From the NCBI RefSeq assembly GCF_002954355.1, contig NZ_MQVV01000017.1, forward strand, positions 372,001 through 436,000: 64,000 nucleotides of DNA, in the 5' to 3' direction. The stretch is from Nonlabens tegetincola. Lineage in GTDB: Bacteria; Bacteroidota; Bacteroidia; Flavobacteriales; Flavobacteriaceae. Made by a program: the position numbers and the translations under genes. Shown in pieces: positions 2,193 through 63,317 of this stretch. The notes below the pieces were generated by a model, which saw only the letters and a list, made by a program, of their open reading frames with translations, searched no databases and was not told the origin of the DNA. Position 1 is the first letter of the stretch, and every line of letters starts with the position of its first letter.

Positions 2193-2208
2193 CGCTTTCG
2201 CGAAAGCG
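2193..2208. repeat. Palindrome copy 1, CGCTTTCGCGAAAGCG, intergenic
   Basis: An exact 16-bp palindrome lies 40 bp upstream of the thioredoxin-like gene, in the divergent intergenic region. It is one member of the dispersed family. Confidence 0.95.
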
Positions 2209-2248
2209 TAACAAACCGACATACTTTACTACTTATAAATAAAAACAA

Positions 2249-2806
2249 ATGGCTCTTACACCTTCTAACATGTTACCACTGGGCACAAAAGCACCAGATT
2301 TCTTTTTATTAGACACGGTAACTGAAAATCACATGAATTTTACAGACATAAAAGGAGAATACGGGACTGTTGTCATGTTTATTTGTAATCATTGTCCTTT
2401 TGTAATCCATGTAAATGATGAGTTAGTACGTGTGGCAAATGATTATCGAGTTGCTGGTTTTGGTTTTGTAGCGATTTCTAGCAACGATATAGAAAACTAT
2501 CCACAGGATGGTCCTAATTTTATGAAAGAAGTTGCAGATCGAGAAAACTATCCTTTCCCTTACTTGTATGATGAGACGCAAGAGGTAGCTCGTAATTATG
2601 ACGCTGCTTGCACTCCTGACATTTATGTATTTGACCGAAATGAAAAGCTTGTATACCGCGGACAATTAGATGATTCAAGACCTGGAAACGGCATACCACT
2701 TACTGGCAGATCATTACGAGAAGCTCTAGATGCTCTTCTAGGTAACAAAGTGGTTTCACCAGAGCAAAAACCTAGTATAGGTTGTAACATCAAATGGAAG
2801 AAATAA
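2249..2806 (+). CDS. Thioredoxin-fold protein (AhpC/TSA-like, CxxC)
   Basis: The 185-residue cytoplasmic protein has the peroxiredoxin/thioredoxin-like start LGTKAPDFFLLDT. A redox pair C46-x-x-C49 sits in the motif CNHCPFV, followed by a helix and the cis-Pro region DAACTPDIYVFD. It belongs to the family annotated as thioredoxin family or thiol-disulfide reductase-like, and the length is typical. Disulfide or peroxide chemistry is inferred from the CNHC motif. A TAAATTTG box at 2143-2150 could be its -7 element, although no good -33 partner is visible. lgt follows after 51 bp and may be co-transcribed. Confidence 0.85.
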   Translation: MALTPSNMLPLGTKAPDFFLLDTVTENHMNFTDIKGEYGTVVMFICNHCPFVIHVNDELVRVANDYRVAGFGFVAISSNDIENYPQDGPNFMKEVADRENYPFPYLYDETQEVARNYDAACTPDIYVFDRNEKLVYRGQLDDSRPGNGIPLTGRSLREALDALLGNKVVSPEQKPSIGCNIKWKK

Positions 2807-2857
2807 GGTCATTAAATTAAGAGGATTACCTTAACTTAGTCCCAGAAAATATTCTAC

Positions 2858-3799
2858 ATGCAATCATTATACATAGTCTGGAATCCACTTGAAGGAATAG
2901 ATTTAGGATTTTTTAAATTACATTTTTATAGCTTAAGTTATGTTATTGCCTTTATTCTAGGCTGGTATATTATTAAACCTATTTTTAAAAGAGAGGAACT
3001 ATCCACTGAAAAGCTGGACCCATTATTTATGTATACAGTAATAGGTTGTATTGTGGGTGCTCGGTTTGGCCATTTTTTATTTTATGAACCAAAGGTGTTT
3101 TTCAATGACTTTTTACATGTAATTCTACCTTTTAGGTTTGAACCTGAATTTGAGTTCACAGGTTTCATGGGAATGGCTAGTCATGGTGCTGCACTAGGAA
3201 TTATCATTGCCATGTACTTTTATAGTCGCAAACATCTAAATCGTAAAACGCCTTTTTGGATTTTGGATCGTATTGTAATACCTACGGCAATTGGTGGAAC
3301 TTTTGTGAGATTAGGTAATTTATTTAATAGTGAAATAAATGGTGATGTAACCAATGGTTTTGGATTCAAATTTGTAAGAGAGAGCACCGATAAGATGAAC
3401 TCATTGTTACAGCAAACCCAAATTCCAGATAGAGATAAAGCTATTGACGAATTGGTGAACAACCCACAATTTGCAACATTACTGGAACAAGTTCCCGTGA
3501 AACATCCTGCGCAGCTGTACGAGGCTATTTGTTATGTTTTCGTATTTATAATTTTATACTTTACTTACTGGAAAACAGACAAAAGGAATAAACAAGGATA
3601 TCTTCTAGGAATGTTCTTTGTACTGCTATTTACAGTAAGATTCTTTATAGAGTATATTAAAGAAGAACAAACAAGTCATGATGGCTGGGAAATGTTTGGA
3701 ATATTCTTAAACAATGGACAGCTTTTAAGCATTCCTTTTATCCTTATTGGTTTATACCTAATGTTCAGACCACAGCAAACACTGGTTAAGGATAGATAG
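2858..3799 (+). CDS. lgt: Prolipoprotein diacylglyceryl transferase
   Basis: Lgt transfers the diacylglyceryl group from phosphatidylglycerol to the lipobox Cys of prolipoproteins in the inner membrane. The 313-residue product has about seven hydrophobic segments. Family motifs are visible: FHSLSY-like N-terminus (HFYSLSY), SHGAALGI, RLGNLFNSEINGD (the Lgt signature) and HPAQLYEA. A 40-residue insertion after the signature is common in Bacteroidota Lgt. The window encodes many lipoproteins that would be its substrates, including the gene directly downstream. Confidence 0.96.
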   Translation: MQSLYIVWNPLEGIDLGFFKLHFYSLSYVIAFILGWYIIKPIFKREELSTEKLDPLFMYTVIGCIVGARFGHFLFYEPKVFFNDFLHVILPFRFEPEFEFTGFMGMASHGAALGIIIAMYFYSRKHLNRKTPFWILDRIVIPTAIGGTFVRLGNLFNSEINGDVTNGFGFKFVRESTDKMNSLLQQTQIPDRDKAIDELVNNPQFATLLEQVPVKHPAQLYEAICYVFVFIILYFTYWKTDKRNKQGYLLGMFFVLLFTVRFFIEYIKEEQTSHDGWEMFGIFLNNGQLLSIPFILIGLYLMFRPQQTLVKDR

Positions 3800-3805
3800 A
3801 TATTG

Positions 3806-7233: not shown

Positions 7234-7243
7234 ATATAAAGAA

Positions 7244-11169: not shown

Positions 11170-11185
11170 CGCTTTCGCGAAAGCG
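11170..11185. repeat. Palindrome copy 2, intergenic
   Basis: An exact CGCTTTCGCGAAAGCG lies in the gap between the mdh terminator and the upstream lipoprotein start. It is preceded by TA and followed by ATA. Confidence 0.95.
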
Positions 11186-12323: not shown

Positions 12324-13424
12324 TTATAATCGAACAAAAATAGACGCAGTAGCCGTATTGAATTCACCAAAGGTATAATCTGCATGTAAATTAAATGCTC
12401 CCAAAGTTAATTTTGCACCTACAGTTCCTAATAACCCTGTTGTATCAGACTCTACTGTCACAGGATCACTCACCGTGGTACTTACAGGGAAAATAACCGT
12501 ATTGCTGGTAAAAGTGTAATCACCTAGTAGTCTTGTCTCTGTACTTCCAGAAATGTAATTGATACCTCCATATAAATTAAAAACGTCCCAATTTGTACCT
12601 GTGATTAAACTTACATTAAAAACATCGACTTGAGTTTCAACACTTTGATCTCTTCCATCTACAATTGCACCATCTTCAAAATCATAAGAAGCATCTAACC
12701 TACTGTAGCCCACAAGAGCCGAAATAGTGATGGGAGCACCATTAATTACTCCATTACCATCTTCTCTATCAAAAAGTTTAGTAAACTCCCATTGTAAAGC
12801 ACCACCGTAAAATCCAGTTTCAAATTCATCTGTTTTTACCTTTGGAACAAATCTGGCTTTAAGTTCAAGACCTGCGCCTAATCCTACTCCTGCTTGTAAG
12901 AAGGCAGTAGGAACAAATTCTAATCCTTCTGAACTTAAACCTTGAGCTAGATCAATCTCATCTCTTTGTAACAATGCTCCTGTATTGGCTTCTCTAGATT
13001 CCACAACAAGTTGTTGTGGCATTTCATTTTCTCCTAGTGCGGTTGCGATTAACCTAGGAGTTGTTGAGCCATCACCAAACGAAACATTAATACTGGCTGC
13101 AGGTCCATTGGTATTATTATAACTTTCTTGAATAATGCGCTCATATTCTGTAGGATCCAGTAAAAACGTCTTTTTCTCATCTGGGGTAAATGTTGCCTGC
13201 GCTCGTAATTGAATTTTGAATTTACCAGGTTTCAACACTCGAGCATCATCGTACCATCCAGATGCTATATTAAAGGTAAGAGATTCTGCTGCAGGTGTAG
13301 CATAATCTTTTGCGTATAGATTTGCAGCATCAACACCGGCTGCAAGTATTTCTGAAAAATTATCTTGTGATTTCGCTTTCGCGGAAGCGAACAAAACACA
13401 TAATATGAATATCGTATTCTTCAT
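12324..13424 (-). CDS. DUF6588-type outer-membrane beta-barrel-like protein
   Basis: I start at ATG 13424 (MKNTIFIL); the longer frame uses a TTG. The signal peptide ends near KAKSQ, and its last codons come from palindrome copy 3. The mature protein of about 345 residues is Gly- and aromatic-rich with many amphipathic strands (GVGLGAGLELKARFVP, VGAKLTLGAFNLHADYTFGEF). This suggests a small beta-barrel that ends in the aromatic/Leu pattern ASIFVRL. It resembles the flavobacterial DUF6588 family; the function is unknown. A TAATTTTG box (minus of 13453-13460) lies 28 bp upstream. Confidence 0.72.
   Translation of the reverse strand: MKNTIFILCVLFASAKAKSQDNFSEILAAGVDAANLYAKDYATPAAESLTFNIASGWYDDARVLKPGKFKIQLRAQATFTPDEKKTFLLDPTEYERIIQESYNNTNGPAASINVSFGDGSTTPRLIATALGENEMPQQLVVESREANTGALLQRDEIDLAQGLSSEGLEFVPTAFLQAGVGLGAGLELKARFVPKVKTDEFETGFYGGALQWEFTKLFDREDGNGVINGAPITISALVGYSRLDASYDFEDGAIVDGRDQSVETQVDVFNVSLITGTNWDVFNLYGGINYISGSTETRLLGDYTFTSNTVIFPVSTTVSDPVTVESDTTGLLGTVGAKLTLGAFNLHADYTFGEFNTATASIFVRL
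13374..13389. repeat. Palindrome copy 3 (one mismatch), inside signal peptide codons
   Basis: CGCTTTCGCGGAAGCG carries one A-to-G change. In the sense of the host gene it encodes ASAKA, just before the predicted signal peptidase site. Confidence 0.9.
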
Positions 13425-15621: not shown

Positions 15622-16254
15622 TTAAGGAATATTTAAATATTTATGCGTTTGTAAAGAGACTTGCCATTCAGGATTTTGCATCACAAAATCTGTAATTAAT
15701 GGAATCATTTTTTCTCTCACCGACCATTCTGGTTGTATGTATAATTTACAACTTGAAGAAACTTTTTCTGCTTCCGCTTTCGCGAAAGCGAAATCATGTT
15801 TATTGTATACAATCACTTTAAGCTCATGGGCTTTAGGATATATTTCAGGAACAGGCATTTTTACCTTTTTAGGAGATAAACAAATCCAATCCCAATCACC
15901 CGTTAACGGATAGGCTCCACTAGTTTCAATATGCACCTGCATTTGTCTTTCTTTAAGACCTTGGGTTAATGGTCCCATATCCCAAGTGAGCGGTTCTCCA
16001 CCAGTAATCACAATTGTTTTACTGTATTTTGAAGCGTTTTCTATAATTTGATCTATAGCAGTAGGTGGATGTTTTTCTGGATCCCAACTTTCCTTTACAT
16101 CACACCAATGACAACCTACATCACAGCCGCCTACTCTTATAAAGTAAGCCGCTCTTCCTGTATGTGATCCTTCTCCTTGAATCGTGTAGAATTCTTCCAT
16201 TAATGGCAACATAAGGCCTTTTTCTACTTGATCCTGCACTACTTCTTGATTCAT
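15622..16254 (-). CDS. queE: 7-carboxy-7-deazaguanine synthase
   Basis: QueE is a radical-SAM enzyme converting CPH4 to CDG in queuosine/7-deazaguanine synthesis. It shows EEFYTIQGEGSHTGRAAYF, then the cluster motif C-DVG-C-HW-C (Cx3Cx2C), TGGEPL and the SPKK block. I start at ATG 16254 (MNQEVVQ). An upstream ATG at 16287 would add 11 unlikely residues overlapping a TATTTTTG box (minus of 16259-16266) that ends 4 nt from the chosen start. Codons 15775-15790 come from palindrome copy 4 and encode AFAKA. No other queuosine gene is in the window. Confidence 0.92.
   Translation of the reverse strand: MNQEVVQDQVEKGLMLPLMEEFYTIQGEGSHTGRAAYFIRVGGCDVGCHWCDVKESWDPEKHPPTAIDQIIENASKYSKTIVITGGEPLTWDMGPLTQGLKERQMQVHIETSGAYPLTGDWDWICLSPKKVKMPVPEIYPKAHELKVIVYNKHDFAFAKAEAEKVSSSCKLYIQPEWSVREKMIPLITDFVMQNPEWQVSLQTHKYLNIP
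15775..15790. repeat. Palindrome copy 4, inside queE
   Basis: This is an exact copy. In queE it is read as AFAKA within HDFAFAKAEAEK, part of an Ala/Lys-rich helix. Confidence 0.95.
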
Positions 16255-20741: not shown

Positions 20742-20757
20742 CGCTTTCGCGAAAGCG
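20742..20757. repeat. Palindrome copy 5, intergenic
   Basis: This exact copy lies 35 bp upstream of the clpP-family gene and 21 bp after the transporter stop. It is flanked by TCTC on the left and TAATTACG on the right. Confidence 0.95.
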
Positions 20758-21492: not shown

Positions 21493-21912
21493 ATGAAACT
21501 CACTCCTTTTCATCTAGCAATTCCTGTAAAAGAAATAACAACAACTAGATCCTTCTATCGTGATACTTTAGGATGCAAAGAAGGTCGTAGCAGTGATCAT
21601 TGGGTAGATTTTGATTTCTTTGGACATCAATTGGTTATTCATATATCAGACAATGCTCCAGGATTATCTCACAATGCGGTCGATGGTAAGTCTGTCCCTG
21701 TACCTCATTTTGGTGTGGTACTAGAATGGGATATTTTTCACACTTTTGCGCAAGCATTACAAGAAAAAAACATCGAGTTTATTATTGAACCCTATATAAG
21801 ATTTGAAGGCTTGCCAGGTGAACAAGCTACCATGTTTTTTCTAGACCCTAGTGGGAATGCTCTTGAGTTTAAAGCATTTAAGGATATGAATCAATTGTTT
21901 GCTACAGAATAA
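21493..21912 (+). CDS. VOC (glyoxalase/dioxygenase superfamily) protein
   Basis: The 139-residue product has the paired beta-alpha-beta-beta-beta units of the vicinal oxygen chelate fold. His7 (PFHLAIPV) and Glu126 ([11 protein letters not shown]) are likely metal ligands, and another His lies in the QLVIHISD strand. [11 protein letters not shown] is the usual helix-strand link. The reaction is not identifiable. Its last 22 bp overlap the 3' end of the opposite-strand amidohydrolase gene (21891-21912). Confidence 0.88.
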
Positions 21913-23665: not shown

Positions 23666-23681
23666 CGCTTTCGCGAAAGCG
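23666..23681. repeat. Palindrome copy 6, intergenic
   Basis: This exact copy begins 4 bp beyond the stop codon of the TonB-receptor-like gene, between that stop and its terminator. Confidence 0.95.
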
Positions 23682-25447: not shown

Positions 25448-28400
25448 TTAGTTTTGACTCGCTGGCACTACAGATGAGTTTGTTTTTGCTTCCTTCGTTT
25501 TAATAAAATCTAGTTCTTTTTGAGCTTCTTCCACCACTTCTGGATACTTAGTAAAATTCTTAATGACAGCTTCTAAAATAGTAGTAGCGTTTAGTGTCTC
25601 TCCTTTGGCGTAATAACTTTTTGCCATAACAACCAGTCCTTTGGCACTCCACAATTTATATCCAGCATAGTTTTTACTTAGGCTGTTTGCCGTTGCAATT
25701 GCCTCATCGTGATTACCATCTTTATTTTCAAAATAAGCTTTAAAATAAGTCGCTTCTGCCGCTAGATTTCCAGTTGCATTCTGTCTTACGTTTTCATAAG
25801 CGGTTCTTGCATCAGATTCCTTGTTCTGTTTCCATGAAGAACGAGCGATAACAATTTGAGCATCGTTTTTCACAGCAGTTTCTGCAGTTGCATCATTCAA
25901 CACCTGATTTGCATAAACGATGGCTTGTGAATAATCTTCAGTTTCGTAAAAAGCCCTCATTAAATTAGACCTTGCATAAGAAACATTTTGAGGAAAATCT
26001 GCTAGTTGTTCCAATTGTTTAAGTACTGGAATCGCTTTCGCGAAAGCGTTATCACTTAAATGAATCTCACTTAATCGAGCCAAAGCTTGTTCGGTAAACT
26101 GACTGCGTTCTTTAGAAATCACATACTCATAATGAGGTATACTTTCTTGTTTTTGATCTAAAGAGAACTGTGCCTGTGCTAAATAAAAATGAGCTTGAAC
26201 GGCATGTTTACCATTAGGAAACTGGTCTAAATACTTTTTCATTTCACGAGCAGTACCTTGCATATCACCTCGCACGAAAGGCTGTTCGGCACTTTCATAG
26301 GCTGTATCATCAAGTTCACTGTCTGTAATTTCAACACCTTCTAAACTTCTTACCCAGGTAGCATACTCTACCGTTTTACCTTGATCGATATATACTTGTC
26401 TGGCGCTGCTAATTCCTTCTGCAGCTTGCGGTGTACCAGCATATTTACTTGCTACTTGTTTAAAAACGCTAAGAGCTGCATCTAATTTACCATCATTATA
26501 AAGTTGTAAGCCTTTTCTCATCATGGCTGGTGAGGTAAATGAACTACGTGGAAACTCACTAATTAACTGATCATAGGTTTGTAATCCATTATTAACCTGA
26601 TTATTATTGATATAGGTATTACCTAATTCATACAACACATCGTCTCTATAAGGTGATCTTTTAAATTTATTCAAGAAGGTTTTAAGATCTTCAATTTTTC
26701 TATCTGGCTTACCTACAAATCCATAAGAAATGGCTTTTTGAAATGCGGCATAATCTGCATTTCTTCCATTCATTGAAATAGCTTTGTTATAAGCTTCCAT
26801 TCCTGGCCAGTATTTCTTAGTCACAAAATTAGCATCTCCTATTCTTAAGTAAGCATCGTTCAATCTTACTTGATCTACATTTGGTTTATTTGTAAATGAA
26901 GTAAATGCTGTTATCGAATTATCGTATTCTTTGAGCTTAAAATAGGTGTAACCTAAATCGTAGTCAATAAGATCATCCTCGATAATACGAGATGAAGATG
27001 CCTTTGCCATTTTATAATTATCAAGTGCTGCCTGATAATTGTTTACCATATAGTAAGAAGCTGCTCTCCAGAAATAAGCACGTTTTTTAAGCTCATCCTG
27101 ATTTGTATACTTTACAGTTTTATCTAGTTGATTAACTGCATCGCTGTATTTGGAATCATTGTATAAGTTGATAGCATGGTAAAAGGCAACCTTTGCATAA
27201 GTCGCTTCGTTTCCTTTGATTCTGCCATTTTCTAGAAGGTCTAAAGCCTCGGCATAATTTTTTGAAGAGAAATAAGAATCGATTAAAAACTCATTCATTT
27301 CATCAGAATGCTGGTTGTCGGGATATGATTCCAAATAACCTAATATTACAGATGGCACACTATCGTAAGGATTCCCGTTTTCATAACTAAGTTTTGCATA
27401 GTTATAAGAAGCATCTTCTGTAATTTTTTCATCAAGATTCATTTCACTTGCTTTTTTAAAAGCATTAAGTGCATCCTCGCGACGATCAACTTTAATATAA
27501 CTTAATCCTAAATGATAGTAGGCATTTTGTGCTGTAGGATTAGTCCCGTCAACTATTTTATTAAAAGTCTCAATGGCCATAGAATAATTGCCCATTTTAT
27601 AATAAGCGTATCCCAATTGATAGTAGTCGTTGTTATTCCATTTGCCACGAGTACCTTCATATTTTTCTAGATAGGGCAATGCCTCGTTATACTTTTCTTG
27701 ATTGAATAAGGATTGACCTATAATACGATTAAGCTCTGATTGTTCCTTGCGGTTAGATTTGGGTAATTGCTCCTGGGCTAGTTGAATAGCTTTATCAAAG
27801 TTTCCTAATTTATAATTAAGATCGGCTTGATAATAAGATAGCTTTTCATCAACTCCTGGTGACTCTTCAACTTGATCAAACAAATCACTTGCTTCTTGCA
27901 GTTCATTTCCTTCATAAGCGATGTAACCCAAATAATATTTTGCTTTGCTTCCATAGGTAGGATCATCGCTCACTCTGTTTAAATACTTTTTTGCTTCATC
28001 GTACTTTTTTGATTGTACGAGAGTATATCCTGTGTTGAAATAGTATCTAGTCGTTTGTTTTTGCGAAAGCGTGCTTTTATCAACCCTAGTATACCATTTT
28101 GCTGCGCGATTGTAATTACCATTATCAAAGTAATAATCGGCCACATCAATAATGGCGTTATTTTTTTTAGGATTAGTCGGGTATTTCTCGACAAACTGCT
28201 CTATGAGTTGGTCTGCGTTTTTTTGATTAAGTCTGACTGCGCAATTTGCGATGTAATAAGCGGCATTAGACTGGATACTTTCATCATCTACCTCGCGTGA
28301 TACTTTCTCAAACAGCCGTTGCGCTGCTAGATATTGATTCTCGTCATATAAATCTAGCGCTTGATTATACATCGCTAGATCATCAATATAAATTTTAGAT

Positions 28401-37723: not shown

Positions 37724-38554
37724 ATGTCGACTATCAATTGTGCTGGCACACTAATCAATCTTTCAAAAGCTCATACCATGGGTATTGTAAACGTTACTCC
37801 AGACTCGTTTTATGATGGTGGTAAGCTCAAGTCTGATAAAGATGTACTCACCCAAGTGGAACGTATGCTCGATGAAGGAGCCACTTTCATTGATATAGGT
37901 GGTTACAGTTCTAGACCTGATGGGACTGATATTAGTGAGCAAGAAGAGATTAGAAGAGTTGTTCCTGTCATCGAACTTGTTGCAAAAAGCTTTAATATTA
38001 AAGGGTTGAGTTGTGACAGCTTTCGCGGAAGCGTGATTAAAAAGGCCCTACAACACGGCGCAAACCTAGTCAATGATATAAGCGCAGGACTTATTGATCA
38101 ATCCATACTACCCGTGGTAGCAGAAGCACAAGTACCTTATATTATGATGCACATGCGCGGCACTCCACAAACTATGAAAACTCTTACTGAATATGATGAC
38201 CTCATTCATGAGATAAATTATTATTTTTCTGATAGAATCGCTGCAGCACGCGCGCTAGGAATCAATGATATAGTAATTGACGCTGGATTTGGTTTTGCTA
38301 AAACTAGAGAGCAAAATTTCACTTTGCTTAAAAACATGAGTTTATTGCAAGCGCACCAAGTTCCTATTCTAGCAGGAGTTTCAAGAAAATCAATGATATA
38401 TAAAACATTGGATACAACCTCGGACAAAGCGTTAAATGGAACTACTGCCCTACACATGATTTGTTTACAACAAGGTGCTAAAATTTTGAGAGTACATGAT
38501 GTGGCGCCTGCCATGGAATGCATTAAACTATTTGAAGAACTGCAAGAAAATTAA
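37724..38554 (+). CDS. folP: Dihydropteroate synthase
   Basis: FolP joins p-aminobenzoate to the pterin pyrophosphate in folate synthesis and is the sulfonamide target. The 276-residue TIM barrel shows MGIVNVTPDSFYDGGK, DIGGYSSRPDG, NDISAG, MHMRGTP, DAGFGFAKT and GVSRKSMI, all family landmarks. The final IRVHDV-type motif (LRVHDVAPAME) is intact. It heads a plus-strand set with cdaA and the DUF3667 pair; 18 bp separate it from cdaA. Palindrome copy 10 encodes the SFRGSV stretch following the barrel strand SCD. Confidence 0.97.
   Translation: MSTINCAGTLINLSKAHTMGIVNVTPDSFYDGGKLKSDKDVLTQVERMLDEGATFIDIGGYSSRPDGTDISEQEEIRRVVPVIELVAKSFNIKGLSCDSFRGSVIKKALQHGANLVNDISAGLIDQSILPVVAEAQVPYIMMHMRGTPQTMKTLTEYDDLIHEINYYFSDRIAAARALGINDIVIDAGFGFAKTREQNFTLLKNMSLLQAHQVPILAGVSRKSMIYKTLDTTSDKALNGTTALHMICLQQGAKILRVHDVAPAMECIKLFEELQEN
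38018..38033. repeat. Palindrome copy 10 (variant), inside folP
   Basis: AGCTTTCGCGGAAGCG differs from the consensus at the first base and in the same internal A-to-G position as copies 3 and 11. It is read as SFRGS. Confidence 0.85.
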
Positions 38555-40947: not shown

Positions 40948-42719
40948 GCTACTTCTTGCTGTAAAAATTGAACCTCGTATAAATTGCGGTAATAGCCATT
41001 TTCTTTTTGCAGCAATTCTTTATGTGAACCTATCTCGACTATTTCACCAGCATCCATTACAATTATTTTATCTGCTTTTTTAATAGTAGCCAATCGGTGC
41101 GCAATTACTATGGACGTGCGTCCTTTGGTAATAATGTCTGTGGCATCTTGAATTAATTGTTCACTATAAGCATCAACAGAACTTGTAGCTTCGTCTAGAA
41201 CTAAAATACTAGGCTTACTCACGTAGGCTCTCAAAAAGGCGATTAATTGACGTTGACCAGAACTTAACATAACGCCACGCTCCTTTACATTGTACTGATA
41301 ACCATTAGGCAAAGACATAATAAAGTCATGAACTCCAATTTTTTTAGCAGCTTCAATTACGTCTTCTTCTGTGATGGATGGATCTTGCAGTGTAATATTG
41401 TTAAAAATAGTATCGGCAAAGAGAAAAACGTCTTGTAAAACAACTGCAATTTGTGACCGCAATGAGTGTAGTTGGTACGCTTTCGCGGAAGCGGAATCAA
41501 TCTTAATCACACCACTGTTAATTTCATAAAATCTCGATAACAAATTGATGATTGTGGATTTACCAGCACCTGTCGCTCCTACTATAGCTACTGTCTCGCC
41601 TGGATTAACTGTGAATGACAAATTCTTTATAACTGGTTCATTTTCTACATAACCGAAATTCACATTCTCAAATTCAATAGCACCTTTAAGATTTTCTGCC
41701 AGCATGGTACCTTCGTCTTCAATCTTAGAATCGGTATCAATTATGGTAAACACACGATTTGCTGCCACCATTCCCATTTGTAAGGTATTGAATTTATCGG
41801 CTATCTGCCTCAAAGGTCTAAATAGTTTTTGAGATAAATCTATGAACATAACAATGGTACCTATTTCTACTAAAAGAGAACCTTGGTCCAAATTAACCAC
41901 AAATCCTATGTAAACGATAAGAGCAATAGTAATACTTGAGGCCATTTCGGCAATTGGGAAAAAGATAGAGTTGTACCATACGGTGCGTACCCATGCGTTG
42001 CGATGCTTGTTATTGATTTCCTTAAAACGTTCGTATTCTATTTTTTCGCGATTGAAGATTTGAACAATTTTCATACCGGTCACCCTTTCTTGAACAAAAC
42101 TATTAAGATTACTAACCTGAGTACGCACCTCTTCAAACGCCTTTTTCATAGCTTTTTGAAATACTCGTGTGGCATACAAAATAAAGGGCATCACTATTAA
42201 TGCCACTAGGGTTAATCGCCAACTATAAAAGAACATAAAACCTAAGACAACAACCATCTTAAGTAGATCGGATATCATCACAAATAAACCTTGTGAAAAT
42301 ATACTTGCAATGGTTTCAATATCACTTACTGCACGTGTTACTAATTTTCCAACTGCACTAGTATCAAAATATTTCATTTTGAAACCCATCATGTGGTCAA
42401 AAAGCTTCAAACGTAAATCTCTAATAACCTGCTGGCCCAACCAGTTTGCATAAAATATAAAACTGAGCTGCAACAACACCTCTATCATTAAAGCACCTAT
42501 CATCATTGCGAGCACAGTGGTAAAACCTTCATACTCCTTTGGAACTATGTGCTCGTCGATAGCCACCTTGAACAAATAAGGCATAGCGATTGAAACTGCT
42601 GCAAGTAAAATTGCGCTCAAGGCTACAAAGTAATACGTAAAACGATAAGGTTTTGTATAGGCTAGTATGCGTTTAAATAAACGCAGGCTAAATGCATTTC
42701 CTGTTGTTTTATCTGCCAT
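40944..42719 (-). CDS. ABC exporter, fused permease and ATPase (MsbA-like)
   Basis: The 591-residue product has a six-helix ABC transmembrane domain (about 15-320) followed by an ATPase with Walker A VGATGAGKST, Q-loop VLQDVFLF, signature LSSGQRQLIAF (LSSGQ rather than LSGGQ), Walker B ILVLDEATSSVD and the H-loop IAHRLATI. It is a half-transporter that would act as a homodimer in the inner membrane to export lipids or hydrophobic compounds; the substrate is not determinable. It is monocistronic. Palindrome copy 11 encodes SASAKAY between the Walker A region and the Q-loop. Confidence 0.92.
   Translation of the reverse strand: MADKTTGNAFSLRLFKRILAYTKPYRFTYYFVALSAILLAAVSIAMPYLFKVAIDEHIVPKEYEGFTTVLAMMIGALMIEVLLQLSFIFYANWLGQQVIRDLRLKLFDHMMGFKMKYFDTSAVGKLVTRAVSDIETIASIFSQGLFVMISDLLKMVVVLGFMFFYSWRLTLVALIVMPFILYATRVFQKAMKKAFEEVRTQVSNLNSFVQERVTGMKIVQIFNREKIEYERFKEINNKHRNAWVRTVWYNSIFFPIAEMASSITIALIVYIGFVVNLDQGSLLVEIGTIVMFIDLSQKLFRPLRQIADKFNTLQMGMVAANRVFTIIDTDSKIEDEGTMLAENLKGAIEFENVNFGYVENEPVIKNLSFTVNPGETVAIVGATGAGKSTIINLLSRFYEINSGVIKIDSASAKAYQLHSLRSQIAVVLQDVFLFADTIFNNITLQDPSITEEDVIEAAKKIGVHDFIMSLPNGYQYNVKERGVMLSSGQRQLIAFLRAYVSKPSILVLDEATSSVDAYSEQLIQDATDIITKGRTSIVIAHRLATIKKADKIIVMDAGEIVEIGSHKELLQKENGYYRNLYEVQFLQQEVA
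41478..41493. repeat. Palindrome copy 11 (one mismatch), inside ABC exporter gene
   Basis: CGCTTTCGCGGAAGCG has the same A-to-G variant position as copies 3 and 10. It is read as ASAKA. Confidence 0.9.
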
Positions 42720-44184: not shown

Positions 44185-44200
44185 ACGCTTTCGCGAAAGC
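44185..44200. repeat. Palindrome copy 12, intergenic
   Basis: This exact copy lies 31 bp after the phosphoesterase stop, preceded by ATTA and followed by AGC. Confidence 0.95.
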
Positions 44201-44222
44201 GAGCTTTAAACTATTATAAAAC

Positions 44223-48610: not shown

Positions 48611-49870
48611 TTATATAAGCTCAATAGTGTAATAGTATCCAAAATGAATTTTCTTCTTCTTGGGCTCTTTTATATCACCATATACATTTAGTATACGCTT
48701 ACCATTTTTCACTTCAATTTTAAAGTGATCAGGACTATCTGGAATTCTGAATCTACCATTACTACCACGAGCATAATTGCTTTCACTAGTTTTACCTGTT
48801 AACAAATCAATAACCGCTTTCATATCAATATTTCTTTTTGATCTAAAATCACTGCGTTTGAGAGCTCTAAGACTTTCTATAAATACAAACTCATTTGCCA
48901 TAGATATTTTGGGTAATTGTTTTTCATAAACGTTGTAAACAAAGTAACCGCTCGTATTAAATAATTGTCCTTCTGGATAGTTATTGATATCATTACTACT
49001 GTACCATTGACGCCAGTTAATACTTTTTAAGATCCAAGAATCCTTTCCTGTATTCTCTCTTTTTTCATAATCTTGTAGATTACTTCCCATCTTTAATTGA
49101 TTTCTAAAACCTAAAAAACCACGTTCTCGTTTTCTTAAATTGTCTGAATTCCAACATTTAAAACCATTTAGGGTGATTTTAATCTTATACTCCTTTCCTA
49201 GATTTGTTCCTGTTCTTACATCAGAATTTGGTAACTGTGTACGGTTACCATTCCAACTTCCATATTCCAAATTATCGTATTTACCTTTGAATGAACTGTT
49301 AGAAAAAATAAAGGAACATGGCCTGATTTTACCTGATTCTTTATTTTTAAACTGACCTTTAAAAATTCGGGTCGATGGATTTTTCTTACCCCAAATCATT
49401 CCTCCCTTATCTCCATAATGAGCGACCATAAATCCAGACTTACTATCAATAAAGTCTAGCGTACCGAATTTAGTTTTCCATTTTCCTTTATGGTAATTTT
49501 GTTGCGCATCGCTTACTTTTTTCCCGTTCCAATCTCCTTGTACTACACCTGTACTCCATTTCCAGGTGCCTTTAAAACCTAACACAGTTTTTTCTAAGTA
49601 TGCATAGCCTAAGGTTCCATTGTTATCAAAAACAACGTTTAGCTTTCTTCCGCTTTTTCTGATAGACCTTATAGTTCCTCGATCACTATATGTGCCTACC
49701 ACGTAATCACCTCTTTGCAATAGGATAATTTGACCAAAATTAGTCTCATAGGTTCCTGTCCAGTTGAGAACCGTAGTAGGTTCCATGTTTGATGTTGTAT
49801 TTGATTCTGCTTTCGCGAAAGCGATACCAAAAAGTAATATCGCAATTGCAATTAATCTTGAAGTTTTCAT
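48611..49870 (-). CDS. Secreted FG/GW-repeat protein, copy 1
   Basis: The 419-residue product has a signal peptide ending AFAKAES, whose last codons are palindrome copy 13. The N-terminal 200 residues contain repeats of the type G-x-Y/W-x-T-x-FG-x-(I/L)-x-L, then (V/A)-x-x-Y-x-DRG, then FKGxW. Examples are WTGTYETNFGQIILLQRG and HKGKWKTKFGTLDFID. This resembles the beta-strand tandem motif found in many secreted Bacteroidota and cyanobacterial proteins. The C-terminal half ends in a segment shared with the neighbouring paralogue (MKAVIDLLTGK, NGKRILNVYGDIK, FGYYYTIELI). The function is unknown. The paralogue lies 6 bp upstream, in the same operon. Confidence 0.78.
   Translation of the reverse strand: MKTSRLIAIAILLFGIAFAKAESNTTSNMEPTTVLNWTGTYETNFGQIILLQRGDYVVGTYSDRGTIRSIRKSGRKLNVVFDNNGTLGYAYLEKTVLGFKGTWKWSTGVVQGDWNGKKVSDAQQNYHKGKWKTKFGTLDFIDSKSGFMVAHYGDKGGMIWGKKNPSTRIFKGQFKNKESGKIRPCSFIFSNSSFKGKYDNLEYGSWNGNRTQLPNSDVRTGTNLGKEYKIKITLNGFKCWNSDNLRKRERGFLGFRNQLKMGSNLQDYEKRENTGKDSWILKSINWRQWYSSNDINNYPEGQLFNTSGYFVYNVYEKQLPKISMANEFVFIESLRALKRSDFRSKRNIDMKAVIDLLTGKTSESNYARGSNGRFRIPDSPDHFKIEVKNGKRILNVYGDIKEPKKKKIHFGYYYTIELI
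49808..49823. repeat. Palindrome copy 13 (first base differs), in signal peptide codons
   Basis: TGCTTTCGCGAAAGCG is read as AFAKA at the end of the signal peptide of copy 1 of the secreted FG/GW-repeat protein pair. Confidence 0.92.
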
Positions 49871-51101: not shown

Positions 51102-52409
51102 TTAAATTTTTCTTATTTCTACGCGACGATTTATTGCTTTGGCCGTCGCTGTTGTTTCATTTGTAAGTGGTTGCGCATCACCAACTCCATCTATTGACAA
51201 GATATCTGGCGTGATATTAAAATCATTAATGAGGACATTATAAACTGATTCTGCACGCTTTCGCGAAAGCGTGATGTTATCATCATATTGCCCATCACTG
51301 TCAGTGTGACCTATAATTTGATATGAATTCTCAGGATTATTCTCAATCTCTCGAGCAATTGCCTTGATAGTAGCGTAGGATTCTGGGTTTAAGCTTGCGC
51401 TTCCTGACTGGAATGTTATTCCATGAGCTTGATAAGAGTCGTTATGAAACAAACTTGTAGGAATTTCAACCTGTCCAGCATATTTAATATTACTGATATA
51501 AAAATGTTGATTTGCCGGTGAAACATTACTAGCAAATCGGATTGTTTGATACAGCACATCCGGTTGTACCGCTTGGGTCATATCAATTACTTTTTCACTA
51601 TTGATATACATTTTTATACGAGTATCCTTTTTTACAATTGAAACGTGGTGCTTTTGATAAGGTTGTGCAGTTTTATTTGATAATACCGCATGAGGTTGTT
51701 TTGTAGACGCGTCTGTAGATCTACTTGTTGTCTTTTTATATAGTATCGCTCCTTTACCACCACCGCCAGAACCTGCACCTATACGCAAATAGGTGTAAAA
51801 ATTACCTTTATAAGGTTTTGACAAATAACTATATGGATCTTCAAGATCACTAAGTATGACATCAAAGTGTCGCTTAAATGCATATTCGTCCATTTTAAAA
51901 TCATAAACAAAGTCAAATTCCAGTGTAAAATCGGATTGTAAATTATTGGCGATCTCACTTATAACGATAGTCCTTGATCCTGCCCCAATTTTTAGCCATT
52001 TTTCATTGAATTCCTCGAGCTTTACTACTTCAGTTCCTGCGTTTGTATGCCAGCTAGTGGGAAAATCTCCAATAAGCACATTGGAAAAATCTTCAAAGTA
52101 GAGAAGATTCTCTCCTGGTGTAAAATCAAATTTTGAATATGTTTTAAAAGTAGATTGATTGTCATAATAAATTGAGTCTTTAAACTCAACCATTTCTGAT
52201 TCTTCTTTCACTATAGGTGAAGCATCATTAACACTATCATTGCCAAATAAAAGGTCGTCTACTCCTTTATCTATTTTATTTTCGATTTTCTTTTCAGTCT
52301 GCTGGACTTTTTGATCAATTTTCTTCTTTAATTTTTTAAAGAATTGGGCTTGACCATTAAAGGCTGTTAACATAAATAAGCACGTTAACAGGGTAAAAAG
52401 GTTTTTCAT
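51102..52409 (-). CDS. OmpA-family protein with coiled N-terminus and central beta-sandwich
   Basis: The 435-residue product has a signal peptide ending GQAQ, a Lys/Glu-rich coiled region (25-55), a central segment of about 200 residues rich in beta strands that could be a LamG/jelly-roll-type domain (DFTLEFDFVYDF, RIKMYINSEKVIDM), and a C-terminal OmpA peptidoglycan-binding domain (YQIIGHTDSDGQYDDNITLS, RKRAESVYNVL, GVGDAQPLTNET, NRRVEIRKI). It should tether the outer envelope to peptidoglycan. It heads the operon of the two FG/GW-repeat paralogues and is divergent from the sigma factor gene across 100 bp. Palindrome copy 14 encodes the conserved LSRKRAES stretch. Confidence 0.87.
   Translation of the reverse strand: MKNLFTLLTCLFMLTAFNGQAQFFKKLKKKIDQKVQQTEKKIENKIDKGVDDLLFGNDSVNDASPIVKEESEMVEFKDSIYYDNQSTFKTYSKFDFTPGENLLYFEDFSNVLIGDFPTSWHTNAGTEVVKLEEFNEKWLKIGAGSRTIVISEIANNLQSDFTLEFDFVYDFKMDEYAFKRHFDVILSDLEDPYSYLSKPYKGNFYTYLRIGAGSGGGGKGAILYKKTTSRSTDASTKQPHAVLSNKTAQPYQKHHVSIVKKDTRIKMYINSEKVIDMTQAVQPDVLYQTIRFASNVSPANQHFYISNIKYAGQVEIPTSLFHNDSYQAHGITFQSGSASLNPESYATIKAIAREIENNPENSYQIIGHTDSDGQYDDNITLSRKRAESVYNVLINDFNITPDILSIDGVGDAQPLTNETTATAKAINRRVEIRKI
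51256..51271. repeat. Palindrome copy 14, inside OmpA-domain codons
   Basis: This exact copy is read as LSRKRA, which coincides with the family-conserved LSxxRA motif of OmpA domains. Confidence 0.95.
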
Positions 52410-53804: not shown

Positions 53805-56800
53805 ATGAGAACCAACCAAACAAGCAGAATCATCTCTTACCTTTTGACATCTAGTCTTATGCTTTTCTTATTGGCTTGTAAAAAAACTGAAGACAGAAGC
53901 TTTAACAAACAGATAAACACTCACGTTGAGAATATTTTTGAAACCGATAAAGTTAATGACTCGTTGAGCAAAAAGTTCTATCAACAAGTTCAGGATAGTA
54001 TAGCTGTTAATAATATTAATCCATCACTCATTTCACTTTTAGACAGCACAACCTTTTATTATGACAAGGTAAAGATTAAAGACTTAAATTATTTAAATGA
54101 AATTTATAAACTTAATTACTCATTTAGATATTACCAAAATGATGTGGAAAATGCGGTACTGAAAATAAAGCAGTTCTTAAAGATTTATAATTCTTTAGAG
54201 TATAAAGATTATAAAATAGAATTACCAGCAATTGATTACTTGGTAAATGGATTGCTTAGAACTAGTGACTGTAGTGTTGCGATTGATGATTACATAAAGC
54301 CCACCGTAAGAAAAATTGACTCTTTAATCAAAATAGAATCTACCCCAGATAATCTTGAATTTTTAGAAACAGCAAAATTATCTCTTTATCAAAACCATCT
54401 TTCCTGTACACAAGTAATGGATAACGGATTTGAAAAAATTAAAGTCCTCAAGGAAATTGAACCCCTTTTAACCCCAAAATACAAAGGAAACGATTATCTG
54501 TTTCAAATTCTAGATTTAATCAATAATGTATCAGACACTTATCATTCATTAGGTGATTACGATAAGTTTCAACTTTATCTACACATGTATGAAAACCTAC
54601 CTGCAGAAAGAGATGCAATAGATAAACAAATCCTCATGGACAGGTACATGATGCATGCAACAAACGTAAAATCTGATTCCCTATTCTTTAAATATTATGA
54701 TGAATCCAGTCGTATTTATCAAACTTCTAGAAATGAATATCCTGAATTTTCTGATGAATACATTACTATTGCTCACTGGCAACGGATAGCTTATGAGCGT
54801 AAAGCAAGATACCTTTTAAAACATGTTGACTCATCCGATAAGGAAATAGCAACTCTATTGCATAAAGCTATTAAACTAGTTAGTAATTTTCAAAATGATA
54901 ATTACATCAACCCTATTAATGCGTATAAAAACCTTGTCGAGTACCATCTTGCAAACGAAAGAATAGATAGTGCTGTATTTTATTTGAATAAGCATTTAGA
55001 AAAATCAAAAACCCTTGAAGACAGTTACCACATAAGAGATAACTTTTTTCTAAACACTTTGGTTAAAATACAATCAAGAAATAAAGATTCAATTATCAGA
55101 AGTCTAAATGATTACTATGAACATCTAGGCATTTCAAATATCAATTCGTTTATCAATAAACCTGAATTACTTAAAGAAACCTCTTTAAGCGAATCATCTG
55201 TAAAAAGGTTTATCAAGCTTGCCCATTCTCTTCATAGAACAGCGACTAACAATCAGGACGACGTATTACTACGTAAAAGTAAAGAGCTATTTCTATTAAG
55301 TACTGGATTAATAAATCAGATGAATTTAATCGTAAATAATAATAGTAATTATGTAATACAAATTGACAAAATCAATAACGCTCTGGTTCAAATCGATGAT
55401 AAACTATCTCAATTAAATGCCTTAAATGAAGACGATATTTTTAGAACCGTAATAGCTTTAGAACAAAACCATTCCGTTGAAATAAAGTTAAAGTCACGGT
55501 TGTATAAGAATGTAAAAAATGATTCCGTTCTCCTCAGTTGGCTTTCGCAAAAGTACTCTCTCGAAAAAAGGATACAGAAAATCTCTCAAGAACAACCTAA
55601 GGACTCTATAAGTCAATTTAGTTACCCAACACTGGTTAATGATCTTAATAACGTTAATCAAAACATAGAAGATAACTATCCTTACCTATCTACTAACAAG
55701 CAAGGTCAAATTACCATTTCATCTCTTAAAAGTTTGGCAAGCCAGCAAACCTCTCATGTATACTATAATGGTGACGATGGCCTTTATTTATATTCTGTAA
55801 GTCAAAATCCTTATACCATTAGACTACTTAACAACGAGGAGTTTAATAATATAAATCATAGGACCATCCTGTCAATCGCTAATAAAGAGCCGTTACTACC
55901 CACAATTAATATTGGTAACAAGCAATTTACTAACGTCACAATTACACGATATGGCGCTACTCAAAACCTACCGCTCCATTACTTAGTCTCAAATTATGCT
56001 GGTAAAAATATAAGCTATTCATTGCAACTTCAAAGTCACCAATTTGATGGCGATCAAAGACCATCATCTTCGCTCATTATTACACCATCTTACACAAATA
56101 TAAGCAACAGTCTAGCAGCTGTTATTGAACGATCTGGCTCTTATTCATTACCCTTTGCACGTGACGAAGCAACCTATATTTCTAAATTATTTGACGGTAC
56201 TCTTTTTATTGATGAAGATGCTACTAAAGAGAAATATATTGAGAACGCACCCAACCACAATGTTCACCATCTCGCTATGCATGCTGTAATTGACGAAGAA
56301 AATGATTACGATGCAAGGTTATTATTTCAGGGTGAAAAAGATGAGGATTTTCTAAACCTAGAAGAAATTTACAAATTACATTTAAATGCAGATTTAGTGA
56401 CATTAAGCGCCTGTAATACTGCTTATGGTAAAATAGATCCTATTGAAGGTGCAATGAGTCTTTCTCGAGCATTTCAATATGCAGGTGCAAGAGCAACCAT
56501 AACTAGTTTGTGGCGTGTTCCTGATAGAGAGACATCGATTATTATGAAGAGCTTCTATTCTCATCTTAAAAAAGGTCAACCCAAAGATGTTGCACTTAGA
56601 CTAGCTCAGGAAGAATATGTATCTAATCAAGTCGAAGAAGAATTTAAACATCCCTATTATTGGGCTGGTTTCATACTTACCGGAGACACTAATCCTATAA
56701 TTTATTCAGATTCACCGTTGGAAAACCTATGGTATGTGATTCCTTTCATACTATTATTGATAGTTCTCTATATCACGCTTTCGCGAAAGCGAAAAAAAAC

Positions 56801-56816
56801 AATAATCCCTTGTTAA
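53805..56816 (+). CDS. CHAT-domain (caspase-like) lipoprotein
   Basis: The 1003-residue product has a lipoprotein signal ending FLLAC, a long all-helical, TPR-like region (about 35-640) and a CHAT peptidase domain (about 700-960). The catalytic dyad is present: His826 in HHLAMHAVID and Cys870 in TLSACNTAYG. Further CHAT features are IEGAMSLSRAFQYAGARA, SLWRVPD and HPYYWAGFILTGD. A transmembrane helix near 972-993 is followed by the basic tail SRKRKKTIIPC, encoded by palindrome copy 15. The CHAT domain should be periplasmic, with the enzyme held at the inner membrane at both ends. It is co-transcribed with the sigma and TPR genes. Confidence 0.9.
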   Translation: MRTNQTSRIISYLLTSSLMLFLLACKKTEDRSFNKQINTHVENIFETDKVNDSLSKKFYQQVQDSIAVNNINPSLISLLDSTTFYYDKVKIKDLNYLNEIYKLNYSFRYYQNDVENAVLKIKQFLKIYNSLEYKDYKIELPAIDYLVNGLLRTSDCSVAIDDYIKPTVRKIDSLIKIESTPDNLEFLETAKLSLYQNHLSCTQVMDNGFEKIKVLKEIEPLLTPKYKGNDYLFQILDLINNVSDTYHSLGDYDKFQLYLHMYENLPAERDAIDKQILMDRYMMHATNVKSDSLFFKYYDESSRIYQTSRNEYPEFSDEYITIAHWQRIAYERKARYLLKHVDSSDKEIATLLHKAIKLVSNFQNDNYINPINAYKNLVEYHLANERIDSAVFYLNKHLEKSKTLEDSYHIRDNFFLNTLVKIQSRNKDSIIRSLNDYYEHLGISNINSFINKPELLKETSLSESSVKRFIKLAHSLHRTATNNQDDVLLRKSKELFLLSTGLINQMNLIVNNNSNYVIQIDKINNALVQIDDKLSQLNALNEDDIFRTVIALEQNHSVEIKLKSRLYKNVKNDSVLLSWLSQKYSLEKRIQKISQEQPKDSISQFSYPTLVNDLNNVNQNIEDNYPYLSTNKQGQITISSLKSLASQQTSHVYYNGDDGLYLYSVSQNPYTIRLLNNEEFNNINHRTILSIANKEPLLPTINIGNKQFTNVTITRYGATQNLPLHYLVSNYAGKNISYSLQLQSHQFDGDQRPSSSLIITPSYTNISNSLAAVIERSGSYSLPFARDEATYISKLFDGTLFIDEDATKEKYIENAPNHNVHHLAMHAVIDEENDYDARLLFQGEKDEDFLNLEEIYKLHLNADLVTLSACNTAYGKIDPIEGAMSLSRAFQYAGARATITSLWRVPDRETSIIMKSFYSHLKKGQPKDVALRLAQEEYVSNQVEEEFKHPYYWAGFILTGDTNPIIYSDSPLENLWYVIPFILLLIVLYITLSRKRKKTIIPC
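56776..56791. repeat. Palindrome copy 15, at the 3' end of the CHAT gene
   Basis: This exact copy is read as LSRKRK, forming the positive-inside tail after the last membrane helix. Confidence 0.95.
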
Positions 56817-61673: not shown

Positions 61674-61690
61674 TTAGAAAGTTAAATTAT

Positions 61691-63061
61691 ATGAAAAAGG
61701 CAATAATTATAGGCGCGCTCGCACTGGGTGCGCTTTTTTCAAGCGCTCAATCTGTTCAAGAAGGACTTACTTACACTCCACAAGATATATTTGGAACAGC
61801 TAGATTTAGAGCTCTTAGCGGAGCAATGGGATCATTAGGAGGCGATTTATCTGCAATTGGAGTAAATCCTGCTGGTTCAACAGTATTTGCAAATAATTAC
61901 GTTTCATTAAGTTTAAATGTATTTAATCAAGATGCCGACACAGATTACTTTGGAAGCACTTCAAATGATGGTAGTACTGATGTAACTATCAATCAAGTAG
62001 GTGGTGTCCTAGTTTTTGAAGGCAACAATGAATCTGGCGTTACTAAATTTTCTCTAGGTATCAATTACGATGCTTTAAGAAATTATGATACTAGGCTCTT
62101 TTTTAATGGTGTAAGTGACACTTCTATTTCTCAATATTTCTTGAATAACGCTAACGGTATTACTCTTGACAATTTACAGTTACAAAATGGAGAAACAGTA
62201 AGCGGTCTTTATAGGTTCCTTGGGGAAAATGTAGGTTTTGACGCACAACAAGCCTTCTTAGGATATGAAGCTTTTATAATAAACGCTGTTGATGACACCG
62301 ACCCAAATAATATTGATTACGTATCAAACACTGGTAATGGTCCATACAACCAGACATATTTTGAAGACTCTAATGGGTATCAAAACAAAACATCTTTTAA
62401 TGGAGCTTTAGAAATTGATAATAAATTTAGCTTAGGTCTTAATGTTAATATTCATTATTTATTTAATGAAAAGTTTACTCGCGCAACCGAAAACAGCAAT
62501 GGTAATGTTTCTAGAACTAGATTTGACAATGTATTAAGAACAGACGGTAGTGGTGTAAGTTTTCAATTAGGTACGATAGCAAAGGTTACAAAGCAATTTC
62601 GACTAGGCCTGTCTTATGAGTCACCAACATGGTATACTATTGAAGATAACTTAGTTCAGGAGATCGAAGCATCAGGAGCCAACATTAATGCTATAGTTGC
62701 TCCTAGGGTAGAAAACTTATTTGCCCCTTACGATTTAAGGCTTCCAGGAAGTTGGACTGCAAGTGCTAGTTATGTTTTTGGCAAAAAAGGGCTTATAAGT
62801 CTGGACTACGGCATAAGAGATTACACGAATATGAAGTTTTCTCCAGAAAACGATTTCATTTTTTCTCAAAACAACCAATTTATTTCCAACAATCTAGACA
62901 CAGCTACCACTTTGAGAATAGGCGGAGAATATCGCGTTAAAAATTGGTCACTGCGTGGTGGTTATAGAATGATTGATTCGCCTTACAAGGATAAGAGTAT
63001 TATGGATGATCTTACAGGTTATAGTTTAGGTTTGGGATATTCATGGGAAATACAGTTCTAG
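61691..63061 (+). CDS. OmpP1/FadL-type outer-membrane transporter, frameshifted near C-terminus
   Basis: The open frame encodes 456 residues: a signal peptide (ALFSSAQ) and the FadL/TodX-type start QDIFGTARFRALSGAMGSLG then AIGVNPAGSTVF, followed by beta-barrel strands. The frame stops at TAG 63059-63061 after GLGYSWEIQF, in the middle of a strand. The -1 frame from 63046 continues GNTVLDLSYDYSEQDF and runs to TAA 63184-63186, ending IVLTLGFNL, which is the expected barrel C-terminus. One base is thus missing around the GGG at 63045-63047, by mutation or sequencing error. Without the last strands, insertion into the outer membrane would probably fail. Confidence 0.9.
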   Translation: MKKAIIIGALALGALFSSAQSVQEGLTYTPQDIFGTARFRALSGAMGSLGGDLSAIGVNPAGSTVFANNYVSLSLNVFNQDADTDYFGSTSNDGSTDVTINQVGGVLVFEGNNESGVTKFSLGINYDALRNYDTRLFFNGVSDTSISQYFLNNANGITLDNLQLQNGETVSGLYRFLGENVGFDAQQAFLGYEAFIINAVDDTDPNNIDYVSNTGNGPYNQTYFEDSNGYQNKTSFNGALEIDNKFSLGLNVNIHYLFNEKFTRATENSNGNVSRTRFDNVLRTDGSGVSFQLGTIAKVTKQFRLGLSYESPTWYTIEDNLVQEIEASGANINAIVAPRVENLFAPYDLRLPGSWTASASYVFGKKGLISLDYGIRDYTNMKFSPENDFIFSQNNQFISNNLDTATTLRIGGEYRVKNWSLRGGYRMIDSPYKDKSIMDDLTGYSLGLGYSWEIQF

Positions 63062-63186
63062 ATTTGTCTTATGATTACTCCGAACAAGATTTCACTCAAA
63101 ACCTTGCTTCTGGAGGATTAGACACCTCTGGGAACGCACGAAACAGCCTAACTAATATCGTATTAACCTTAGGGTTTAATCTATAA
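63046..63186 (+). pseudogene. Displaced C-terminal codons of the OmpP1/FadL gene
   Basis: In the -1 frame relative to 61691-63061 this segment encodes 46 residues starting GNTVLDLSYDYSEQDF and ending in the strand IVLTLGFNL. It directly continues the OmpP1 family alignment lost by the stop at 63061. Confidence 0.85.
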
Positions 63187-63205
63187 CAGGTTAACTCTTA
63201 ACAAG

Positions 63206-63240
63206 AAAAAAGCTGCATTTCCAATAGATGCAGCTTTTTT
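63206..63240 (+). terminator. Terminator of the OmpP1/FadL gene
   Basis: A stem AAAAAAGCTGCAT / ATGCAGCTTTTTT with a 9-nt loop lies 19 bp after the frameshift-corrected stop at 63186. This supports 63186 as the true gene end. Confidence 0.88.
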
Positions 63241-63293
63241 TATACCTAGGATTAAATGATTTTTATAATTATTGTGCTTGGTAGTGTTTAGTT

Positions 63294-63317
63294 ATTACGC
63301 TTTCGCGAAAGCGTAAT
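63294..63317. repeat. Palindrome copy 16, 24-bp extended form, intergenic
   Basis: ATTACGCTTTCGCGAAAGCGTAAT counts as the longest perfect copy in the window. It lies between the two terminators of the convergent OmpP1 and T9SS type B genes. Confidence 0.95.

Follow-up and report, generated by a model that had tools for sequence, protein, structure and literature searches.

A 16-bp palindrome iterated at conserved positions throughout Nonlabens genomes, tentatively read as a self-DNA tag

Copy number, structure and spacing of the site

The 64-kb stretch of Nonlabens tegetincola DNA analyzed here (G000:C17:372001-436000, referred to as the window; the assembly comprises 3.03 Mb in 21 contigs) contains 16 copies of the 16-bp palindrome GCTTTCGCGAAAGC. 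We found the same palindrome in hundreds of evenly spaced, mostly perfect copies in this genome and at conserved positions in other members of the genus. We tentatively interpret it as a lineage-specific, genome-wide self-DNA tag that would work like a DNA uptake signal sequence (USS), without classing it as one.

Twelve copies in the window are exact, three carry one mismatch and one carries two (Table 1). Two further matches with three mismatches are located at 28056 and 28799, and the 18 matches at ≤3 mismatches compare with a mean of 0.09 in 100 shuffles. All 16 copies had been listed in a first-pass annotation of the window as 12 exact copies and four with one or two mismatches. Its division into six intergenic and ten intragenic copies agrees with the open reading frames (ORFs) of the window, and a start given as 44185 (correctly 44186) was the sole error among its positions.

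The whole genome contains 464 exact copies (about 153 per Mb), 600 copies at ≤1 mismatch and 577 copies of the 14-mer core, whereas a reversed-pattern control gave no match at ≤1 mismatch. In a 416-kb sample of G000 we counted 70, 23, 7, 4, 7 and 23 copies with zero to five mismatches, so that the motif copies form a class distinct from the background. The palindrome has a GC content of 62% in a genome of 35%. A 404-kb sample contained 68 exact copies, while Markov models of orders 2–5 predicted 1.3e-5, 2.1e-6, 7.7e-7 and 3.1e-7 when the motif was masked from training, and 1.9e-5, 7.5e-6, 6.2e-5 and 0.025 without masking, the last value being this high because the order-5 model has learnt the motif. 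The first-pass annotation would have been refuted by a genome-wide count near the Markov expectation or by copies confined to the window, and neither applies: even the highest expectation for 68 observed copies is 0.025, and copies occur throughout the genome.

The 16-mer forms the core of a larger dyad-symmetric site, about 52 bp long. On each strand the 16-mer is preceded by about 18 nt of T/G-rich, C-poor sequence, a preference that continues more weakly to about 32 nt, and it is followed by a flank that is A/C-rich and not T-rich whichever strand is read. Flanks of different copies are alike in composition only and have no sequence in common; before the core of intergenic copies, where the sequence is free of codons, the flank approximates GKKTTTTKNTKATTA (194 half-sites). 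G000, 20 other Nonlabens, G250 and 34 viral loci of GC content below 0.5 all show this profile (7 of the 41 viral loci were excluded), and it is weak in the 12 sites of G234. Base-pair covariation between opposite flank bases gave no consistent signal, and a long stem or hairpin extending past the 16-mer was rejected on this basis. A helical 10-bp phasing of the flank T-tracts was also rejected, as the leading period of the pooled flanks is 3 nt and not 10 bp (permutation test, p = 0.002 for T+G and p = 0.066 for T). The 3-nt period is strongest in one coding phase, yet it also occurs in intergenic flanks, and codon structure alone is no obvious cause.

In the Nonlabens samples we counted 179 distinct sites that are exact and only 81 with a single mismatch. 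When the 81 sites were folded on the dyad, 61 mismatches fell on the end base (28 C to A, 33 C to T), eight on position 6, seven on position 2, four on position 7 and one on position 3, with none at positions 4, 5 and 8; all five at positions 3 and 7 are C to T. Outside the motif the inner 8-mer TTCGCGAA occurred once in 404 kb of G000.

The copies are more evenly spaced than expected by chance. On contig C10 of G000 the 77 gaps between exact copies have a mean of 5.6 kb, a minimum of 1835 bp and a coefficient of variation (CV) of 0.51 (0.99 for random placement); none is shorter than 1.5 kb, where 17.8 were expected. Exact copies of G004 gave a CV of 0.61, with 2 of the 56 gaps below 1.5 kb (17.0 expected). 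At ≤1 mismatch such short gaps numbered 3 of 73 in G000 (22.5 expected), 4 of 59 in G022 (17.5), 9 of 95 in G250 (31.5) and 0 of 7 in G234 (1.2). The respective CVs were 0.42, 0.63, 0.57 and 0.39, random placement yielding 0.87–0.88 for the first three genomes. Density in the samples is about one copy per 4–6 kb. In G022 we sampled 20 stretches of 20 kb at even intervals, which together contained 79 sites (variance-to-mean ratio 0.52, lower-tail p = 0.04). Of these sites 46 lay in the first ten stretches and 33 in the last ten (two-sided p = 0.18; origin not located), so that a density gradient from origin to terminus is neither shown nor excluded.

Sites are enriched between genes: 29 of 91 are intergenic in G000, 38 of 79 in G022, 16 of 24 in G250 and 45 of 90 in 20 gyrB regions (the last being mostly the same orthologous sites), with non-coding DNA accounting for only 11–14% by simple ORF calling. 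The other 62 copies of the G000 sample lie within ORFs, and coding copies favor the phase reading AFAKA. Among 86 intergenic copies 58 were located between tandem, 18 between divergent and 10 between convergent genes, about as expected from the total length of each gap type. The first-pass annotation was right that the motif does not serve particular genes as a terminator or operator. In one stretch of G022 (L163, C1:1859001-1879000) the GC content is 0.30 compared to about 0.40, and three of the five copies carry two mismatches; perhaps this is an island of recent date whose copies are still taking shape.

Positional conservation, origin and distribution of the copies

The copy at 15775, within a radical-SAM gene in the gyrB neighborhood, is found at the same place with ≤1 mismatch in all 20 other Nonlabens examined. 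In the alignment of this gene the 16 motif columns average 98.8% consensus, compared to 74% over the whole alignment. Across the gyrB region the two 16-mers showed at most one difference in 91.6% of 896 aligned motif pairs and in 13.7% of 2931 control pairs, at a mean flank identity of 0.777 and 0.774, respectively (16-mer unmasked; the pairs are non-independent, as 93 sites in 21 genomes often count the same ortholog again). Copies are therefore kept in place at 78% flank identity, which answers a check that had been proposed with the first-pass annotation. One position of the window is empty although a copy is found there in 18 of 20 other Nonlabens (Table 1), and the site has probably been lost.

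The copies derive mainly by substitution. We aligned the 15775 place with 25 homologues from other genera, all lacking the copy, and found it ungapped in each of them. The residues at this place are FAE in 24 of the 25 homologues and FAK, encoded by the motif, in Nonlabens; the DNA site may have imposed this change. Compared with G131, coding sites aligned ungapped in 14 of 16 cases, and the residues under the sites were less conserved (0.33) than those in the flanks (0.53). Altogether, the four comparisons gave 14/16, 8/8, 6/8 and 4/4 ungapped sites. The remaining gapped sites, two of 16 for Nonlabens against G131 and two of eight for G250 against Nonlabens, weigh against a pure substitution origin. 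In one of them, L227:11639 of G250, the copy lies in an 8-residue gap including AFAKA relative to a 60% identical homologue in L163, and possibly represents an insertion or a length-variable loop. The other G250 site is a one-residue shift at a place where both genera have a copy.

The 15775 copy is absent from both G250 and G234. Among eight Nonlabens coding sites with a homologue in the G250 sample, two were common to both at ≤1 mismatch, one of them in a stretch of only 40% identity. The reverse comparison returned the same two of eight plus a third that is offset by one alignment residue (L232 versus L025). The view, based on small samples, that no site is common to G250 and Nonlabens was dropped, as more DNA gave two and then a third. 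These sites, only three in number, point to an ancestral system with turnover of its sites.

The motif is nearly restricted to three genera, Nonlabens and two others. All 22 other Nonlabens searched contain 362–897 copies at ≤1 mismatch; the two lowest counts come from genomes that are 77–78% complete, and G020 has a single match to the control. At the same threshold 12 of 13 genomes from other genera of the family had no copy, the exception being G033 with eight copies, all on contig C18, and none was found in 23 of 23 genomes from other families. Exact copies occurred in 38 of 299 genomes of the family. Five of these are dense: three Nonlabens with 464, 495 and 579 copies, G250 (genus g225) with 630 and G234 (genus g209) with 153. 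The other 33 contain 1–13 copies each, and several of the matches listed lie in clusters. A search of 296 genomes of the class for the 14-mer gave 1–4 copies in 15 genomes other than G000.

In a GyrB tree of 30 genomes the three dense genera group with G131, G188 and G024 at moderate support (91/89), which implies three changes of motif density. These near relatives have 4, 3 and 0 exact copies genome-wide; the four of G131 all lie within 20 kb, and 500 kb of the same genome sampled elsewhere contained no copy at ≤3 mismatches. A weak screen for another iterated 10-mer (at least six copies) found none in 100 kb of G131, 40 kb of G188 and 60 kb of G024. In 100 kb of G234 (L135-L139, 44% GC) we found 5 exact, 7 one-mismatch and 6 two-mismatch copies. 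Six of the seven one-mismatch copies differ at the end base, so the looser ends resemble a dialect-like variant.

Table 1. Copies of the palindrome and one empty position in the window
Feature	Coordinates	Strand	Context
Exact copy	2193..2208	.	Intergenic
Exact copy	11170..11185	.	Intergenic
Copy, 1 mismatch	13374..13389	.	Within ORF 12324-13445 (DUF6588)
Exact copy	15775..15790	.	Within radical-SAM gene 15622-16287
Exact copy	20742..20757	.	Intergenic
Empty position (probable site loss)	21741..21756	.	No copy at ≤3 mismatches; copy in 18/20 other Nonlabens
Exact copy	23666..23681	.	Intergenic
Exact copy	26033..26048	.	Within ORF 25448-28516 (TPR protein)
Exact copy	32520..32535	.	Within ORF 32286-33422
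Exact copy	36191..36206	.	Within glycosyltransferase ORF 35420-36508
Copy, 2 mismatches	38018..38033	.	Within pterin-binding enzyme ORF 37724-38554
Copy, 1 mismatch	41478..41493	.	Within MsbA-like ABC transporter ORF 40944-42719
Exact copy	44186..44201	.	Intergenic
Copy, 1 mismatch	49808..49823	.	Within ORF 48611-49870
Exact copy	51256..51271	.	Within OmpA-domain ORF 51102-52409
Exact copy	56776..56791	.	Close to 3' end of ORF 53805-56816
Exact copy	63298..63313	.	Intergenic

Proteins of the window include some with sorting domains of the type IX secretion system, consistent with Bacteroidota.

Mobile DNA, candidate readers and competing explanations

An exact scan of a viral collection of 2.9 million contigs returned 41 stretches from 30 contigs. 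Counted by hand, 11 of the 30 carry two or more exact copies, and some contigs look related; single copies may be due to chance. Some of the contigs clearly come from phages. One contig (L049 and L066) encodes portal, terminase, protease, capsid and tail genes, and the two exact copies of L049 are located in its portal and terminase ORFs. L059 has tape-measure, portal and capsid genes, and L034, which has an integrase, belongs to a contig with four exact copies. The isolated Nonlabens phages P12024S and P12024L contain no copy at ≤3 mismatches in 35.7 and 35.0 kb, where the density of the host would predict about seven. We take both phages as lytic because no integrase is among the annotated genes shown. 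On the presence of DNA uptake sequences (DUS) in prophages, the excerpted text of PMC9238386 gives only a reference.

The eight copies of G033 are spread over about 92 kb of C18, six of them within two 20-kb stretches (L027 and L028; 75001-95000 and 120001-140000). Metal-efflux genes (HlyD/CusB-like, P-type ATPase, outer-membrane efflux and multicopper oxidase) and a large ParB-like gene lie beside these copies. Pairs of copies at a distance of 933 bp recur in G122, G131 and G145. Together, the G033 island and the recurrent pairs suggest a shared mobile element that would stem from a motif-dense host.

In the explanation that we tentatively favor, a putative reader protein, probably symmetric, would recognize the 52-bp site around GCTTTCGCGAAAGC and would favor DNA carrying it, most likely during uptake or recombination of homologous DNA. 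Stretches that are mutated or lack the motif would be replaced or outcompeted by tagged conspecific DNA. The outcome would be one near-perfect copy per few kb of the resident chromosome, with redundant neighbors left to decay. We infer both the existence and symmetry of the reader and the process by which tagged DNA would be favored. An uptake or recombination tag is ranked first. The motif combines a strict consensus with even spacing, flank tracts and enrichment outside genes, its copies arose mainly by substitution, and it has lineage variants; uptake signals show this combination as far as the excerpts of PMC1626085 and PMC1939737 describe them. Also in favor of a tag are the conservation of the 16-mer in place and the contrast between two isolated phages without the motif and an integrase-bearing phage contig with four exact copies.

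Several points weigh against a self-DNA tag. The motif is a perfect palindrome with symmetric flanks, and at about one copy per 4–6 kb it is sparser than known USS and DUS; the length and dyad symmetry of the site fit a dimer in the cytoplasm more readily than a receptor at the surface. A reader gene was not found among the families tried (three methyltransferase families, ParB and ComEC-type). The ComEC-type family PF03772 matched in 13 of 13 motif-dense genomes tested and likewise in 8 of 9 motif-poor ones, so that it does not discriminate between them and permits uptake without supporting it. The literature searched holds no report of competence for Nonlabens. The non-independence of the pairs counted for conservation belongs here as well.

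Nearly as likely, and ranked second, is a chromosome-organizing site. An intracellular dimer on the 52-bp site would load, bend or block there, as a clamp, a condensin boundary, or a repair or supercoil barrier, and one site would be needed every few kb. Such a role fits a site that is perfectly dyad-symmetric, has symmetric flank preferences and lacks a stem, and it fits the even spacing with redundancy and the conserved positions at which a conserved residue has been changed. It also fits that some phage contigs (one of them with an integrase) and the metal island carry copies, whereas the two isolated phages carry none. However, no gradient from origin to terminus is established, and the consensus is stricter than that of the regulatory sites described in the excerpt of PMC1626085. 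A constant second ParB is also missing: in a search of 23 Nonlabens (G250 and G234 not included), 20 had one TIGR00180 match and only G015, G018 and G019 had more, and we rejected a Noc-like ParB as the reader on these grounds. In addition, G000 has separate parS-like words. Two of them, one exact and one with a single mismatch, lie within 2 kb on C10 (L013:1538-3447), a third with two mismatches lies at 8213, and this locus is perhaps near the origin.

With similar reserve we consider that the motif may belong to an undescribed system of Flavobacteriaceae. A dedicated symmetric protein would read the dyad site every 4–6 kb and set a periodic architecture, a clamp-loading grid or a self-recognition grid, altering conserved residues and being adopted by some phages and islands. 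A description of the motif was absent from the literature searched, subscription papers being outside its scope. Papers matching TTTCGCGAAA as text were unrelated by title and the start of the abstract, and in the excerpted text of PMC8034619 TTTCGCGAAA is part of words missing from the human genome. A LexA operator was rejected, as the Bacteroidetes motifs given in the excerpt of PMC8565304 (GGA-N5-TCC and CTAA-N5-TTAG) differ from the palindrome.

An HIP1-like sequence, made or kept by an orphan DNA methyltransferase with methyl-directed repair, is ranked third and appears unlikely. The over-represented, GC-rich palindrome would fit, as would the C to T changes at positions 3 and 7, and the excerpt of PMC4390886 connects such palindromes with methyltransferases. 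However, PF01555, PF00145 and PF02086 are patchy, none being constant across the motif-dense genomes (G250 and G234 were left out of the PF01555 search), and G007, G008 and G010, motif-dense and 99% complete, have no match to any of the three at E ≤ 1e-5. Furthermore, TTCGCGAA is nearly absent outside the motif, and most single mismatches affect the end base with C to A about as frequent as C to T (28 and 33), which argues against a general methyl-C hot spot. The first-pass annotation had suggested a target of a methylase, which these three families do not support, and had seen a likeness to both HIP1 and uptake signals, of which uptake signals are the closest fit.

A mobile element resembling repetitive extragenic palindromes or miniature inverted-repeat transposable elements, spread via insertion, is very improbable: near-identical copies within and between genes fit it and the few coding sites at gaps may be single insertions, but most coding sites including the 15775 place align ungapped, flanks are not alike in sequence and spacing is over-regular. 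We give equally little weight to a transcription-related hairpin or terminator: the palindrome is able to fold and is enriched between genes, but its downstream flank is not T-rich on either strand, most G000 copies lie in ORFs and convergent gaps are not preferred.

Comparison with known systems

To our knowledge, genome-wide tags this strict are mainly the uptake signals found in two families of proteobacteria; HIP1 is a looser case. Like the USS of Pasteurellaceae and the DUS of Neisseriaceae, the motif occurs in hundreds of over-regularly spaced copies, perfect ones outnumbering those with a single mismatch; it is enriched in non-coding DNA while many copies lie in genes, is mainly of substitution origin, and has lineage variants and, as in USS, AT-rich flanks. 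In the excerpted texts, the excess of perfect copies over single mismatches is a hallmark that sets USS and DUS apart from regulatory sites (PMC1626085), and known USS and DUS are non-palindromic with nearly one copy per kb (PMC1626085, PMC1939737). In contrast, the motif described here is a palindromic 16-mer with symmetric flanks, is about 4–6 times sparser and belongs to another phylum, and its link to uptake is putative.

With HIP1 and the alternate HIPs of cyanobacteria it shares the character of a highly iterated GC-rich palindrome in genic and intergenic DNA. HIPs are words of 5–8 bp at about 500–2500 per Mb (PMC4390886, excerpted text). The Nonlabens site differs in its 16 bp plus flanks, in its lower number of exact copies per Mb and in having no constant methyltransferase among the three families.

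The sites of the ParB family, parS and the Noc-binding sites, are palindromes of 14–16 bp bound by dimers. The motif is a palindrome of that size, but with hundreds of evenly spread copies, next to a single constant ParB and separate parS-like words. Chi is a short, polar and non-palindromic recombination site. Chi-type sites are similar in their few-kb spacing and in T/G-rich 5' flanks on each strand, whereas the present motif is long and palindromic. With its conserved positions, its extended symmetric footprint and its contrast between phages, a palindromic tag in Bacteroidota is a tractable system: finding its reader would tell whether sequence-biased uptake has re-evolved in another phylum or whether chromosomes are periodically marked in an undescribed way.

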